This document shows, piece after piece, positions 17,344-21,637 of a DNA stretch of 36,859 nt (position 1 is the stretch's first letter; every line of letters begins with the position of its first letter). The notes under the pieces are model-generated. The model was given only the letters and a program-made list of their open reading frames with translations. It was not told the origin of the DNA and did not search any database. The position numbers and the translations under genes were made by a program. This stretch comes from Synechococcales cyanobacterium CNB (GTDB lineage Bacteria; Planctomycetota; Phycisphaerae; Phycisphaerales; UBA1924): contig SZOZ01000014.1 in NCBI GenBank assembly GCA_030263455.1, positions 1 to 36,859 on the forward strand, given 5' to 3'.

Positions 17344-18126
17344 TCACATCTTCTTCCCCACCACCAGCCCCACCACGCCCGCCACCAGGGTCACGCCCGC
17401 GCACACGCCCACCCACATCCAGTGGTTGTTGCCCACCGCCGACAGCAGCCCCGCCGACGCCCCCGTCATGGCGAACAGCACCACCGCCAGCGCGAACGCG
17501 CACGTCGCCACCACTCCCAGCGCAAGACCGCCGACCAGCCCGGAACCCGGCCCGTCGATCACTTCCGCCACGAAGATCGGCGCGGCCGCCGGCGCGGACT
17601 CCGCCTCCGCGCCCGTGGACTCGAACAGCGCGGACGGTTCCCCGCCCACCGCCGACGCCGCCGCAGTCTCCTGCCCCCCCCCGAGCACGTCCTCCAGCAG
17701 GTCCGCGCCCAGCGAGGTGTCGTCGCTCTCCCGCGTCAGGTCCAGCAGGCCCGACCCCGACGCCCCGGCGTCGATCTCGAATCCCGCACCCAGCGCGGTG
17801 TCCGTGATCTGCGTCTGCGCCGACGGGTCCGCCTCCTCCGCCTCGTCGGCGTCGAAGATGCTGATCCCCGTCTGCTCCTTCGGGTTCTCCACCCCGAGCG
17901 AACTGCCCGAACCCGACGACGTCAGGCTGATCGGCTCCAACTCGTCCGCCAGCGGGATCGCGTCGTCGCCGCCCGCCAGCAGGTCCACCTGCTCGCGCTT
18001 GAAAACCAGCCTGTCGCGATCGCGGAACTCCTGCAACTGCCCGCTCGCCGCCATCTGCTTCACTTCCGCCTCGGACTTGCCGAGTTTCGCAGCCGCCTCT
18101 TCGAGCGAGTAGAACATCTTGGCCAT
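17344..18126 (-). CDS. Excisionase-type HTH protein with two C-terminal membrane segments
   Basis: The product is 260 residues from ATG 18126 (GGAGAG upstream). Residues 1-50, MFYSLEEAAAKLGKSEAEVKQMAASGQLQEFRDRDRLVFKREQV, are a MerR/excisionase-like winged helix. A long acidic, Ser/Gly/Ala-rich region (about 55-185) follows, and two hydrophobic segments close the protein (about 190-215 and 232-256), ending KKM. This layout would tether the DNA-binding domain to the membrane through a flexible linker. Proteins of this kind occur repeatedly in Phycisphaerae, but I know of no characterised member. It is divergent from the metallophosphoesterase gene. Confidence 0.75.
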   Translation of the reverse strand: MAKMFYSLEEAAAKLGKSEAEVKQMAASGQLQEFRDRDRLVFKREQVDLLAGGDDAIPLADELEPISLTSSGSGSSLGVENPKEQTGISIFDADEAEEADPSAQTQITDTALGAGFEIDAGASGSGLLDLTRESDDTSLGADLLEDVLGGGQETAAASAVGGEPSALFESTGAEAESAPAAAPIFVAEVIDGPGSGLVGGLALGVVATCAFALAVVLFAMTGASAGLLSAVGNNHWMWVGVCAGVTLVAGVVGLVVGKKM

Positions 18127-18188
18127 GACGACTCTCCGCGTACCGATCGGTTCGGGTGGGGCAGGCCTCACGCCCGCCGACGGTCCAT

Positions 18189-18194
18189 CATACT
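18189..18194 (+). promoter_or_regulatory. CATACT -10-like element before the metallophosphoesterase gene
   Basis: CATACT lies 32 nt before ATG 18227 in the divergent gap and is its most AT-rich hexamer. No -35 or ribosome binding site was found. Confidence 0.25.
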
Positions 18195-18226
18195 CGCCCC
18201 ACCGGCCCCGCCGAGCGACCCTCCCC

Positions 18227-19048
18227 ATGCCTCACACGCGACCCGACACCGCCTACCGCCGACCCGTTCCACCCTACCCCATTGAAACCCACGAACTCCC
18301 CCTCTCTTCTCTCCCCTCCGCGCTCAACGGCTTCCGCGTCCTCCACATCTCCGACCTGCACGTCCGACGCCTCTGCCTCCGATCCGGCCTCCTCGGGCGA
18401 ACCCTCGCCGCCCTGCCGCGCACGCCACTCGAACTCGTCCTCCTCACCGGCGACTACGCCGATCGACCAGGCCACGAGCACGCCGCCCTCCGCACCCTCC
18501 ACGCCCTCGCCTCGGCGTGGCGAGCCAGGCACGGCGCCGTCGCCATCTTCGGCAACCACGACACCGCCCTCATGCGACGCCTCGCGCGCGATGTGCCCGG
18601 ACTCCGCTGCATCGACACCGGGGCCATCGATCTCCCCGACCTCCCCCTGCGCATCCTCGCCGCGTCCTACCCCGAGGACCTCTTCGCGGCCGCGCTCTCG
18701 CGCTCCCACGACGACCGCTTCGAGATCGCCCTCGTCCACGACCCCGTCGCCGCGATCGCCGCCGCGGAACTCCGCGTGCCCCTCGTGCTCGCCGGACACA
18801 CGCACGGCGGGCAGGTCCGCCTCTCGCCGCGCGCCATCCCGCACACGTCCTCCGACCTGCCGGCCTCGCTCGCGTCGGGCATCCTCCGCATCGACGGCAC
18901 GCTCTGCTGCATCAGCCGCGGCCTCGGCGACGCCATGCTCCCCATCCGCCTCAACTGCCCCCCCCACGCACCCCTCTATGTCCTGCGCCGAGCCCCCGAA
19001 CTGCACGGCCCTTCGCAGCGCGCGCCCCGAAGCCTCCGCCCTTGGTAG
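18227..19048 (+). CDS. Calcineurin-like metallophosphoesterase
   Basis: The product is 273 residues from ATG 18227; the in-frame upstream extension to 18119 overlaps the HTH gene's start region and is not protein-like. The metal-binding motifs run in order: VLHISDLHV (D, H), LLTGDYAD (GD), IFGNHDT (GNHD), ALVHDP (H) and LAGHTHGGQVRL (GHTHGGQ). This is the YkuE/YaeI branch of binuclear metallophosphoesterases, several of which act on lipid or nucleotide phosphodiesters. No membrane segment is obvious. The start has no Shine-Dalgarno site. It converges with the HxlR regulator at a 3-nt gap. Confidence 0.85.
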   Translation: MPHTRPDTAYRRPVPPYPIETHELPLSSLPSALNGFRVLHISDLHVRRLCLRSGLLGRTLAALPRTPLELVLLTGDYADRPGHEHAALRTLHALASAWRARHGAVAIFGNHDTALMRRLARDVPGLRCIDTGAIDLPDLPLRILAASYPEDLFAAALSRSHDDRFEIALVHDPVAAIAAAELRVPLVLAGHTHGGQVRLSPRAIPHTSSDLPASLASGILRIDGTLCCISRGLGDAMLPIRLNCPPHAPLYVLRRAPELHGPSQRAPRSLRPW

Positions 19049-19051
19049 CCC

Positions 19052-19642
19052 CTACAGCGACGCGAGAATCCGATCCACCGCCCCACGCGCTCCGCGCCCC
19101 GACCGGGTCAGGCCGTACACCACGCCCGGCGGCGAGCCGTCCGACACGCGCCGCCAGAGCAGGCCCGCACCCAACGCCGACCTCAACGCGGCCGCCAGCG
19201 CGCGATCCGTGATCCCGGGTAGCGCAGCGCGAATCTCGACGAACCGCCCCCCCCCCTCGCCCACCGCCCACACCACCGGCAGCGTCCACTTCCGCAGACC
19301 CACCTCCTCCAGACCGCGCCGGCGCAGCATCCCCCACAGCGACGCGCAGGCCGGCCCGATCCGCGCCCCGCGCGACGTGAGCACGAGTTCCGGTCGCAGC
19401 GGGTGCCCGTAGCCGGGGTTCCGGCGCAGCCAGCCGTGCGCGGTGGCGAACTCCACCGTCTCGCGCAGTGCGCCCCGCCCCACGCCGAGCCGGTGCATCA
19501 GCCCGATGAACCGCGCGCCGGTCGAGTCCCTGCTCGCCGCCGACCAGTGGACCTCCGCGATCACCGGCAGGCACCATCGGCGATGGAACAGGTTCACCAG
19601 CGCCTCGGGGCAAACCCTCACTGTCGCTCCAGCCGCCGCCAT
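19052..19642 (-). CDS. HxlR-family transcriptional regulator with two winged-helix domains
   Basis: The product is 196 residues from ATG 19642, with AGGGAG 6 nt upstream; an upstream GTG at 19747 would place the promoter and operator palindrome inside the gene. The second half, LRKWTLPVVWAVGEGGGRFVEIRAALPGITDRALAAALR... ending PPGVVYGLTRSGRGARGAV, is a clear HxlR domain. The first half has the same plan (CPEALVNLFHRRWCLPVIAEV...GARFIGLMHRLGVGRGALRETV...LVLTSRGARIG), so the protein is a fused pair where typical HxlR proteins are homodimers. Cys11-Pro12 in front of the first RRW mirrors the redox Cys-Pro of Bacillus YodB. It probably controls the divergent VOC and FMN reductase genes and itself. 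Confidence 0.8.
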   Translation of the reverse strand: MAAAGATVRVCPEALVNLFHRRWCLPVIAEVHWSAASRDSTGARFIGLMHRLGVGRGALRETVEFATAHGWLRRNPGYGHPLRPELVLTSRGARIGPACASLWGMLRRRGLEEVGLRKWTLPVVWAVGEGGGRFVEIRAALPGITDRALAAALRSALGAGLLWRRVSDGSPPGVVYGLTRSGRGARGAVDRILASL

Positions 19643-19689
19643 CCATGGCTCCCTCTGCCACCACCCTCCGGCCACCGGCCTTGACTCAG

Positions 19690-19708
19690 AAGTATAGCCA
19701 CTATACTT
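19690..19708. promoter_or_regulatory. Perfect 8-3-8 palindromic operator with overlapping -10 boxes
   Basis: AAGTATAG (19690-19697) and CTATACTT (19701-19708) form a perfect inverted repeat around CCA, in an AT-rich island within a GC-rich region. Each half holds a TATACT hexamer for one strand: plus-strand TATACT at 19702-19707 points to the VOC gene, with TTGACT at 19681-19686 as a -35 at a short 15-nt spacing. It lies 48 nt before the HxlR start and 51 nt before the VOC start, the expected place for an autoregulated divergent operator. Confidence 0.75.
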
Positions 19709-19758
19709 TATGACTACCGCCCCCGCAACCCGCGGCGGCACAACCACGGAGCGAAACC

Positions 19759-20139
19759 ATGACCGGCACCCCCAAGTACGACGGCGGGCTCACCATCGCC
19801 ACCCAGGTCAGCAGCCTCGACAAGGCCATCGACTGGTACACCAGCGTCCTCGGCATGAAACTCCTCTACCGCGCCGACCACATCGGGTGGGCCGAAGTCG
19901 CAAGCCCCGTTGCACGCGTCAACGTCGGCCTCTCCCAGGTCGATCGCCCCAGGGTCGGCGCGGGCCCCGTCCCTACCTGGGGCGTCCACGACATCGACAA
20001 AGCCCGCGCCACCCTCGAATCACACAAGGTCCGCTTCGACGGAGACACCATGACCATCGAGGGCATGGTCCGGCTCGCCACCTTCTTCGACCCCGACGGC
20101 AATGCGCACATGCTCTACCAGAGCCTCTCCCAGCAGTAA
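19759..20139 (+). CDS. VOC-family (glyoxalase/dioxygenase-like) protein
   Basis: The 126-residue protein has the two beta-alpha-beta-beta-beta units of the vicinal oxygen chelate fold: TIATQVSSLDKAIDWYTSVLGMKLLYRADHIGWAEVASP, then VPTWGVHDIDKARATLESHKVRF and LATFFDPDGNAHMLYQSL at the end. The family includes glyoxalases, ring-cleavage dioxygenases and resistance proteins; the metal ligands cannot be assigned with certainty. It is the first gene to the right of the palindromic operator and is probably controlled by the HxlR protein. Confidence 0.85.
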   Translation: MTGTPKYDGGLTIATQVSSLDKAIDWYTSVLGMKLLYRADHIGWAEVASPVARVNVGLSQVDRPRVGAGPVPTWGVHDIDKARATLESHKVRFDGDTMTIEGMVRLATFFDPDGNAHMLYQSLSQQ

Positions 20140-20154
20140 TCACACGCCCGGTGC

Positions 20155-20171
20155 GGGGCCGTGCAGGCCCC
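20155..20171 (+). terminator. GGGGCC-GTGCA-GGCCCC hairpin after the VOC gene
   Basis: A perfect 6-bp stem with 5-nt loop lies 15 nt after the VOC stop. It is of the same kind as hairpins at 1949-1974 and 29688-29706. There is no T tract. Confidence 0.45.
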
Positions 20172-20271
20172 ATACCCCCGCGGCCTACGCACACCCCCCC
20201 CTCCCGACTCCCCACCGTCACTCCCGCGATCCCTCCCGCATACCATCCCCGAACCCCCGGGGGTGTACGCC

Positions 20272-20853
20272 ATGACCAGCCCGAAAGTGCTCGCCTTCGC
20301 CGGCAGCTCGCGCCGCGACTCGATGAACAAGAAACTGCTCCGTGTCGCCGCCGCCGGCGCGCAGGAGGCCGGCGCTGCCGTCACGCTCCTCGACCTCACC
20401 GACTACCCGCTCCCCATCTACGACGGCGACCTCGAAGCCGCCGAGGGCATCCCCGACAACGCCCACCGCCTCAAGGACCTCTTCCTCCAGCATCACGCCC
20501 TCCTCATCGCCTGCCCCGAGTACAACTCCTCCATCACCCCGCTGCTCAAGAACACCATCGACTGGGTTTCCCGCCCGCGCGACGCCGATGGCGGCCCGCT
20601 CGGCTGCTTCAAGGGCAAGACCGCCGGCCTCGTCGCGGCCAGCGGCGGCAACCTCGGCGGACTGCGCGGACTCGTCCACGTCCGCGCCATCCTCTCCAAC
20701 ATCGCCGTCCTCGTCGTCCCCGAGCAGTTCGCGCTCCCACGCGCCGACACGGCCTTCGACGAAGCAGGCCGACTCAAGGACCAGGGCGCGGAGAAGTCCG
20801 CCAAGGCCGTCGGCGCGGCCACCACCCGCGTCGCCGCCAGCCTCCTCCGCTGA
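20272..20853 (+). CDS. NADPH-dependent FMN reductase / quinone reductase-like flavoprotein
   Basis: The product is 193 residues from ATG 20272; the upstream in-frame stretch is proline-rich and not protein-like. VLAFAGSSRRDSMNKKLLRVA is the FMN phosphate-binding loop, LLIACPEYNSSITPLLKNTIDW is the family hallmark, and KTAGLVAASGGNLGGLRGLVHVRAIL continues the flavodoxin-like fold. These enzymes reduce FMN, quinones, azo dyes or chromate with NADPH. Following the VOC gene on the same strand and near a thiol-type HxlR regulator, a role in quinone or electrophile removal is plausible. A TACCAT at 20241-20246 and the hairpin upstream leave open a promoter of its own. Confidence 0.9.
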   Translation: MTSPKVLAFAGSSRRDSMNKKLLRVAAAGAQEAGAAVTLLDLTDYPLPIYDGDLEAAEGIPDNAHRLKDLFLQHHALLIACPEYNSSITPLLKNTIDWVSRPRDADGGPLGCFKGKTAGLVAASGGNLGGLRGLVHVRAILSNIAVLVVPEQFALPRADTAFDEAGRLKDQGAEKSAKAVGAATTRVAASLLR

Positions 20854-20938: not shown

Positions 20939-21637
20939 TCAAAGCCTTCCCACCGTGCACCGCACCCGATCCAGCGCACCACGCAGATCCCATCTCTGAG
21001 ATGCGCGGTCCCCCGTCGTGTTGCTGATCGCTCGCACTTCCACGAACGGCACGCCGATGCGCCGCGCCGCCAGCCCCGCCGCCGCACCTTCCATCGCCTC
21101 GGCGACCGCTCCCGTCCGTCTCGCCACGTCCGCCGCTCGCGCATCCGTCCCCGAGCACGTCGAGACCGTTGCGATGCATGCCGCCACGCCCCCGAGCGTG
21201 CGCATCGTCGCCACCAGCGCATCGTCTCCCGGCACGTTCATCCCCGGCAGGTCGCTCGGCGGGAAACCCAGTTCTGCCTGCGTTACGAACCCTTCCGGCG
21301 TCGCGACCCCGTCGTCCGCGAACACCGACGCCGTCGCCACCACCAACCCCACGATCGGGGGTGAAGACGCTCCAGGCAGCGATCCTGCCACTCCCAGGTT
21401 GACAACCGCGGCGTGCCGAGATGCGTCGAGCGTTCGCGCCACGGCGCCCGCCGCATTGGCCTTCCCAACACCCGAGATGACCAGGTCGAACCGCTCGTTC
21501 AGGGGTGTCAGGGTCCATGCCGGGGGGACTTCGCCCGCCCAACCCAGCCCGGCCAGCACGGCCTGCGCCTCCGACGGCGCGGCCACCACCAGCAGCGTTC
21601 TGCGCCCTGCCGCGATCTGGAGCAGCCCCGTGCCCAC
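20939..21637 (-). CDS. mqnB: Futalosine hydrolase (menaquinone biosynthesis, futalosine route)
   Basis: The 232-residue protein belongs to the purine nucleoside phosphorylase fold. TLLVVAAPSEAQAVLAGL opens the fold, FDLVISGVGKANAAGAVAR is the phosphorylase loop, and EAMEGAAAGLAARRIGVPFVEVRAISNTTGDR is the MqnB signature, with the MEGAA glutamate and the SN..GDR acidic residue of the active site. MqnB splits futalosine into hypoxanthine and dehypoxanthine futalosine. No other mqn gene is in the window. The start is GTG 21637 with no clear ribosome binding site. It is divergent from the HlyD-type gene. Confidence 0.88.
   Translation of the reverse strand: MGTGLLQIAAGRRTLLVVAAPSEAQAVLAGLGWAGEVPPAWTLTPLNERFDLVISGVGKANAAGAVARTLDASRHAAVVNLGVAGSLPGASSPPIVGLVVATASVFADDGVATPEGFVTQAELGFPPSDLPGMNVPGDDALVATMRTLGGVAACIATVSTCSGTDARAADVARRTGAVAEAMEGAAAGLAARRIGVPFVEVRAISNTTGDRASQRWDLRGALDRVRCTVGRL

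Follow-up and report, generated by a model that had tools for sequence, protein, structure and literature searches.

What a regulator built from two HxlR-type halves in a single chain controls, and what switches it, is the question raised by a locus in contig SZOZ01000014.1 (assembly GCA_030263455.1, positions 1 to 36,859, forward strand). This 36,859-nucleotide (nt) stretch, analysed as a whole and called the window below, was deposited as Synechococcales cyanobacterium CNB and is placed by GTDB in the Phycisphaerales of the phylum Planctomycetota; the same-genus relatives BJ19 (L031) and Phycisphaeraceae TGS_PLA3 (L032) are Planctomycetota metagenome-assembled genomes. In the window, a tandem HxlR-type regulator (P0001) diverges from a gene for a VOC-fold protein (P0002), which is followed by a gene for a flavin mononucleotide (FMN) reductase (P0003), and a palindrome lies between the divergent genes. 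An initial annotation had read this arrangement as an electrophile-sensing unit on the pattern of YodB and CatR of Bacillus. Our analysis points elsewhere. The regulator and the VOC gene form a conserved divergon, and this unit is probably a single-locus autorepressor switch that is released by a ligand and controls the VOC protein.

A conserved divergon and its palindrome

The survey of the family covered 163 genomes of the family to which the window's genome belongs, and matches to P0001 were accepted at E<=1e-8. P0001 matched in 55 of these genomes; 54 encode a double HxlR protein, and one single-domain match (G143) was set aside. The VOC protein, at E<=1e-20, was found in 52 of the 163 genomes, all of which are among the 54 double-HxlR genomes. 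Of the two remaining carriers, G105 has the VOC gene split in two, and in G091 it runs off the end of a contig. Regulator and VOC gene are adjacent and divergent at 52 of the 54 loci, the exceptions being L052, where they lie 2.7 kb apart, and L056, which has an interrupted regulator at a distance of 3.7 kb from the VOC gene. The VOC promoter of L056 (G103:C1) keeps the palindrome with 3 mismatches despite its interrupted and distant regulator. Outside the family, 17 double-HxlR loci were found among sampled genomes of the class (397) and the phylum (392); 13 of them have a divergent VOC gene within 1.3 kb, and among the other four, L127 has only 0.2 kb upstream. A DUF6265 match lies in between at L105, and a weaker VOC match lies nearer at L123.

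The features of the unit, in window coordinates, are as follows.

19052 to 19642, minus strand: tandem HxlR-type regulator P0001, 196 amino acids (MAAAGATVRVCPEALVNLFHRRW), assigned by Pfam, hhalign and its relatives
19319 to 19642, minus strand: first (N-terminal) winged-helix-like half, residues 1-108, from hhalign, without a Pfam match of its own
19055 to 19318, minus strand: second (C-terminal) HxlR domain, residues 109-196, PF01638 at E 2.2e-13
19607 to 19612, minus strand: Cys11-Pro12, ahead of the first RRW, from the translated reading frame
19388 to 19420, minus strand: signature NPGYGHPLRPE of the first half, at the probable wing position by alignment to HxlR
19205 to 19207, minus strand: Asp146, presumed start of the C-domain recognition helix, tentatively linked to half-site base 6 by column-pair association
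19690 to 19708, no strand: putative operator, palindrome AAGTATAG-CCA-CTATACTT, kept at orthologues
19681 to 19686, plus strand: -35 box TTGACT of the VOC promoter, with TTGAC at the same place in 37 of 49 loci
19702 to 19707, plus strand: -10 box TATACT of the VOC promoter, inside the right arm
19691 to 19696, minus strand: -10 box TATACT of the regulator promoter, inside the left arm, without a clear -35
19759 to 20139, plus strand: VOC-fold protein P0002, 126 amino acids, PF00903, apparently without the canonical metal-ligand residues
20272 to 20853, plus strand: NADPH-dependent FMN reductase P0003, PF03358, a neighbour seen only in the window's genus (g1)

By its domains, P0001 belongs to the HxlR family, its C half through Pfam and its N half through hhalign only. 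The Pfam match is confined to the second half (residues 117-191, 50.3 bits against a cut-off of 20.8). The N half aligns to the C half with an hhalign probability of 98.9 (E 1.7e-17), and to 13 single-domain HxlR stretches from the phylum, a set that includes one visible mis-hit (L135), with a probability of 97.1 (E 7.3e-11). The two fused halves described at first, with Cys11-Pro12 before the first RRW, are thus both HxlR-like in sequence, homologous to each other and to ordinary HxlR proteins. In a profile search, the N half gave weak matches to 4hob, 4wcg and 2h09 (E 2e-4 to 7e-3), which we take to be winged helices, and the C half matched YodB (5hs7, E 3e-13), QsrR (4hqm, E 2e-12) and also HxlR (7bzd). 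The signature of the first half is nearly invariant among the 53 family rows, with P81, R83 and E85 in all 53, G77, G79, H80 and P84 in 52, and N75 in 51. It would be the best candidate for contact with DNA or ligand. A search of the literature by phrase returned no description of a double, tandem or duplicated HxlR or DUF24 protein.

The perfect 8-3-8 palindrome was confirmed between the divergent genes. It is the sole match in the window at <=3 mismatches, and none of 100 shuffles gave one. Conservation beside orthologues had been named beforehand as the test of this element, and the element passed it. The best match upstream of the regulator to an 18-position pattern (AAAGTATAGN3CTATACTTT) has <=4/18 mismatches at 40 of the 54 family loci, with the second-best place at >=6, and the looser TATA-N5-TATA core occurs at 47 of 53 family loci (L056 left out; L014 doubtful) as well as at L094, L097 and L100 outside the family. 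The exact core GTATAGN3CTATAC was found at 21 places in 18 of the 163 genomes. Double HxlR proteins are encoded by 17 of these genomes, and 17 of the 21 places lie between regulator and VOC gene. At <=3 mismatches, 33 of the 54 carrier genomes contain a total of 36 sites. Each of the 33 has one at the VOC promoter, and in 32 it is the only one.

A wider regulon was considered and rejected as a general feature, because the only extra sites at <=3 mismatches are three, all in genome G070; two more exact-core places away from the unit are in G023 and G104. One of the G070 sites is target-like, the sole such site found: at L154 (G070:C14:49425-49439), 7 nt separate a copy of the core from the start of an open reading frame (ORF) that resembles kynurenine 3-monooxygenase (PDB match, E 7.7e-83). 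The operator-like site of the HxlR/VOC unit of G070 itself (L020) has 19-nt arms. At L155 and L191 (G070:C33:99826 and G070:C30:96717), long palindromes with the core are flanked by the 3' ends of convergent ORFs, as though the element had a second role as terminator or small repeat. One of the two is 97% identical to the promoter copy over 36 nt, and the other was placed by eye.

The palindrome overlaps the core promoters of both genes, which is the usual position of a repressor site. In the VOC direction, TTGACT lies 15 nt ahead of TATACT. When the flanks of 45 loci (42 from the family, 3 from outside) were aligned on the palindrome, TATACT was seen in each arm and GTCAA on the regulator side, which reads as TTGAC toward the VOC gene. 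The spacer between the conserved TTGAC and TATACT is 15 nt at 19 loci and 16 nt at 17. A TTGAC placed to serve the regulator was found at 9 of 49 loci, and a formal sigma-70 scan that demanded a spacer of 16-18 nt returned no promoter in the window's unit. The claim of -10 boxes for both directions stands as far as the TATACT in each arm is concerned, but a recognisable -35 exists only toward the VOC gene. HxlR transcription factors act as dimers on dyad operators, in neighbouring major grooves. Half-sites 11 bp apart, as in the window, would fit two helices on one face of the DNA. For DNA-bound HxlR, the distance between recognition helices is given as 34.8 A (PMC7835342, in excerpts).

We propose that the fused HxlR pair binds the palindrome, which covers the spacer and -10 region of the VOC promoter as well as its own -10 region, and would thereby repress both genes. 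A small molecule would release the regulator from the DNA. The VOC protein would then be made, together with a co-transcribed DUF6265 protein in many relatives, and perhaps with the FMN reductase instead in the window.

The VOC partner, its neighbours and the cysteines

The VOC protein carries the Glyoxalase/Ble fold by its Pfam match (PF00903, 43.9 bits against a cut-off of 20.6). An alignment of its family (63 rows, two partial rows dropped) shows W26, W44, E46, G57 and M118 in all 63 rows and Thr12 in 62. Weak pairwise stretches place T12 opposite a His of the lactoylglutathione lyase 6bnz, and M118 opposite a Glu of 5d7z, both of which we take to be metal ligands of glyoxalase I. The His and Glu ligands of CatE and glyoxalase I were not found in the VOC protein, in a comparison that used glyoxalase sequences and left CatE itself out. 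Judged from this alignment, the protein is single-domain, seems to lack these metal ligands and hence does not appear CatE-like. Because these residues are missing, it would more likely bind or sequester a compound, or act without a metal, than cleave its substrate as CatE does. Binding and sequestration are known from the bleomycin-resistance proteins.

The downstream genes are variable. VOC and FMN reductase genes do follow each other in the window, as first described and as Pfam assigns them (PF00903 and PF03358). As a general component of the unit, the reductase found no support: it was seen as the VOC-side neighbour in the window's genus only (3 genomes), and the 22 other family loci covered for >=2.5 kb on that side all lack it, the remaining loci being covered for about 2.3 kb or less. 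L038 has an FMN reductase on the side opposite to the VOC gene. The VOC/FMN-reductase pair is a local variant. The common third gene encodes a DUF6265-like domain, detected within the stretches of 40 of 71 loci by a hidden Markov model (HMM) built from 31 of these genes. Of four such proteins submitted to Pfam, three match PF19780 and one is truncated at the stretch boundary. The DUF6265 protein looks secreted by eye; at some loci, additional VOC domains are fused to it or encoded ahead of it. The window's genome lacks it, and literature searched by phrase contained no mention of it. At L013, L017, L019 and L038, a single reading frame joins VOC-like domains to DUF6265 (by Pfam for L038, and by our own HMM and by eye for the other three), and these fused frames support a shared function of both families.

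The alternative closest to the initial annotation is a thiol switch. Cys11 would react with quinones or diamide (compare Cys6 of YodB and Cys5 of QsrR), the repressor would leave the DNA, and VOC protein and FMN reductase would be induced to detoxify electrophiles, with the fusion making the sensing asymmetric. We regard this as unlikely. In its favour, all six family rows from g1 and a second genus, g58, have both Cys11-Pro12 and Cys99, and the FMN reductase follows in g1. YodB uses Cys6 and Cys101' (PMC8063818, in excerpts), and the QsrR regulon of Staphylococcus aureus, in the passages of PMC7845598 that describe it, holds FMN reductase, nitroreductase and glyoxalase/bleomycin-resistance proteins. 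The cysteine, however, is not a family feature. The Cys11 column has Cys in 6 of 53 family proteins, in g1 and g58 only, and Cys-Pro before RRW was seen by eye in none of the 17 outside proteins; sensing by this Cys-Pro finds no support as a general reading. Cys99 is in 29 of 53 family rows. Four of the 53 regulators (L010, L024, L034, L055) have no cysteine at all; the VOC gene is kept beside them, and their sites show 0, 2, 3 and 7 mismatches/18, respectively, each with an exact TATA-N5-TATA core. In these four loci, no Cys codon was found in frame between the site and the chosen start. Since Cys11 is rare and four relatives are cysteine-free, a thiol switch cannot be the common mechanism; with the reductase seen in one genus only and a VOC protein without CatE-type ligands, it would be a local addition at most rather than the shared function of the system. 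In g1 and g58, an added YodB-like thiol response via Cys11 and Cys99 is possible. Formaldehyde chemistry of the Cys-x-Lys type, which HxlR needs (PMC7835342, in excerpts), was also considered and rejected, because P0001 reads Cys-Pro-Glu.

Comparison with known systems leads to the same assessment. As with the quinone-sensing repressors QsrR of S. aureus and YodB of B. subtilis, the regulator is an HxlR (MarR/DUF24) winged helix whose C half matches their structures, and VOC/glyoxalase and FMN-reductase genes occur in the QsrR regulon as well. Unlike QsrR and YodB, it carries two domains in one chain, and their conserved reactive N-terminal Cys, although present in P0001, is missing from most of its relatives. 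Its VOC partner appears to lack the metal-ligand residues, and where those repressors serve a multi-gene regulon, 32 of the 33 site-bearing genomes have one dedicated operator-like site. The core GTATAN5TATAC of the window's palindrome equals that of the QsrR site as reportedly described by Ji et al. in 2013; no confirmation was seen elsewhere in the literature searched, and this similarity, which would favour the thiol switch, serves as a lead only. Catechol 2,3-dioxygenase is a VOC-superfamily enzyme. CatE is an iron enzyme of this kind, whereas the window's VOC protein is single-domain and without the ligand residues, and CatR has two boxes where the window has one palindrome. The CatR-catDE system of B. 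subtilis shares an HxlR-type repressor and an operon with catechol 2,3-dioxygenase (PMC6212828, in excerpts). With HxlR of B. subtilis the shared features are the winged-helix family and an N-terminal Cys (excerpts of PMC7835342); unlike P0001, HxlR is an activator and a dimer of single-domain chains, and its Cys-x-Lys crosslink is impossible with Cys-Pro-Glu. Of the proposed YodB/CatR-like electrophile logic, the fused HxlR pair, the conserved palindrome and the divergon remain; a family-wide Cys and a CatE-like VOC protein are not supported. The unit does not belong with YodB, QsrR or CatR; autorepression by an HxlR-type regulator is its most likely mode of action.

Unequal arms and the direction of control

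The two arms of the palindrome are not equally conserved. Across the 45 aligned loci, the regulator-proximal arm has 25 mismatches and the distal arm 81; the distal arm is worse at 28 loci, the proximal at 6, and 11 are ties (p 2e-4, a statistic that ignores kinship). This asymmetry may come from two different recognition helices or from promoter constraint. Residue 146, whose place at the start of the recognition helix is presumably that of HxlR structures, shows with distal base 6 the strongest association among the 2041 column pairs compared over 46 family loci (p 3.5e-5, raised to about 0.07 by Bonferroni correction), and its pair with the matching proximal-arm base ranks fifth. At the 34 Asp146 loci, the proximal C was never lost and the distal G was lost at three (L006, L024, L043). 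The 12 non-Asp146 loci changed the distal base at 9 and the proximal base at 6, never the proximal base alone; L015, L026 and L033 keep both. Symmetric swaps of base 6 in both arms were seen at five loci (L035, L040, L012, L019, L055), where residue 146 is Pro or Ala. A tree of 45 rows from which that helix was excluded shows 4 or more changes of the trait but yields only 2 independent pairs with support, or 4 when all branches are counted. The few pairs ran, on average, 1.7 the expected way, 0.0 the opposite way and 0.2 undecided. These associations are suggestive of residue 146 tracking operator base 6.

The better-kept proximal arm, the association of residue 146 with base 6 and a wing motif (His-Pro-x-Arg-Pro-Glu) that is nearly invariant in the first half and missing from the second lead us to a tentative idea. 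The fused chain may be a built-in asymmetric dimer, whose two recognition helices would read the arms with unequal stringency in one fixed orientation. We hold this to be possible, with the balance tilted against it; an asymmetric single-chain mechanism is promising but unproven.

Several observations weigh against the ligand-released autorepressor. The two-armed core is missing at 6 of 53 family loci, and outside the family the palindrome has <=4 mismatches at only 3 of 17 loci, the other 14 being at >=5. Reversed controls of the motif also match freely. The exact core reversed gave 31 sites in the 163 genomes, compared to 21 real ones, and at <=3 mismatches the reversed pattern gave 45 in the 54 carriers (13 in G107 and 13 in four genomes of genus g67), compared to 36. 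In the window's own 3.2-Mb genome, the core occurs once exactly, nowhere at 1 mismatch and at 4 places at 2, and its reversed control had 22 forward matches at <=2. Because reversed controls match more often than the real motif, the motif is informative by its position and not by its rarity. Structures predicted from three close sequences each gave no usable fold, with a predicted local distance difference test score of 38.0 for P0001 and 42.6 for the VOC protein, and the claim about the metal site depends on a weak sequence alignment together with presumed ligand positions. Finally, HxlR of B. subtilis is an activator (PMC7835342, in excerpts), so that control could run the opposite way.

Such an activator would sit between -35 and -10, and its ligand-bound form would realign the promoter of the VOC operon while its own gene is repressed. 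The VOC-side spacer of 15-16 nt is shorter than the usual 17 and would suit this model. HxlR itself is activated by formaldehyde (PMC7835342), and SoxR, a MerR-type regulator that binds inside a bidirectional promoter, acts as activator of one gene and repressor of its partner, according to excerpts of PMC12825309. On the other side, both -10 boxes are covered by the operator, which normally blocks polymerase, and no activation element was seen by eye in the aligned flanks. The spacers of MerR-type promoters are longer than usual, not shorter. Activation appears improbable, somewhat more so than the thiol switch.

That the palindrome is only a symmetric bidirectional promoter core of two back-to-back -10 boxes, with the regulator bound elsewhere, is very improbable: symmetric -10 elements drive divergent transcription at many E. 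coli promoters (excerpts of PMC12825309) and the TATA bases are the most conserved columns of the aligned palindromes, but conservation reaches beyond the -10 to the G/C at base 6 and to TTT past the -10 of the proximal arm, each of the five symmetric base-6 changes goes with a non-Asp residue 146, and near-copies of the 21-bp motif lie at plasmid loci of Roseibium and Phaeobacter. The acrR/acrAB and soxR/soxS promoters likewise have a regulator and target that diverge from a symmetric core (PMC12825309, in excerpts); unlike them, the window's unit has two distinct -10 boxes within its palindrome, and the palindrome doubles as the putative operator.

Plasmid copies and significance of the unit

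The module, including the VOC gene, has also entered plasmids of Proteobacteria, one copy lying in a class 1 integron region. Four of 72,556 plasmid records match the regulator, from Roseibium porphyridii, Phaeobacter inhibens (two) and Pseudomonas aeruginosa. At the three loci examined (one Phaeobacter record left out), the VOC gene diverges from the regulator each time. The intergenic dyads of the Roseibium plasmid (AAAATATAGTAACTATATTTC) and the Phaeobacter plasmid (AAAATATACTAACTATACTTT) have 3/18 and 2/18 mismatches; the regulators beside them share 30-32% identity with P0001 across 67% and 45% of its length, respectively. The best place in the Pseudomonas copy has 7 mismatches and one visible half-site. 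This VOC/double-HxlR pair (L192, NZ_CP131793.1, 220797-221754) lies in the integron region of a P. aeruginosa plasmid, with qnrVC1, qacEdelta1 and sul1 as neighbours. At L194 (3001-3600), the Phaeobacter regulator is unannotated and reads in two frames; the locus also has the VOC gene and an operator-like site.

Other origins and roles of the unit were screened. None of 50,697 phage records matched, and PADLOC returned no defence-system match for the three proteins, so phage origin and a defence system were both rejected. Outside the unit, a calcineurin-like phosphoesterase gene (18119-19048, plus strand; PF00149, E 2.8e-12) converges with the regulator gene, and a PNP_UDP_1 phosphorylase-family gene (Pfam) lies at 20939-21637 on the minus strand.

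The locus represents a compact package of regulator, putative operator and target that is conserved over Planctomycetota and reaches Proteobacteria plasmids. As a repressor, a fused HxlR pair would come as a single chain by nature, open to asymmetric mutants that are out of reach for a homodimer. The association between base 6 and residue 146 makes the DNA specificity of the double-HxlR family directly testable. The conserved VOC partner, apparently devoid of a metal site, suggests a protein that binds some compound, and spread by plasmids and an integron would fit a compound-binding resistance function.

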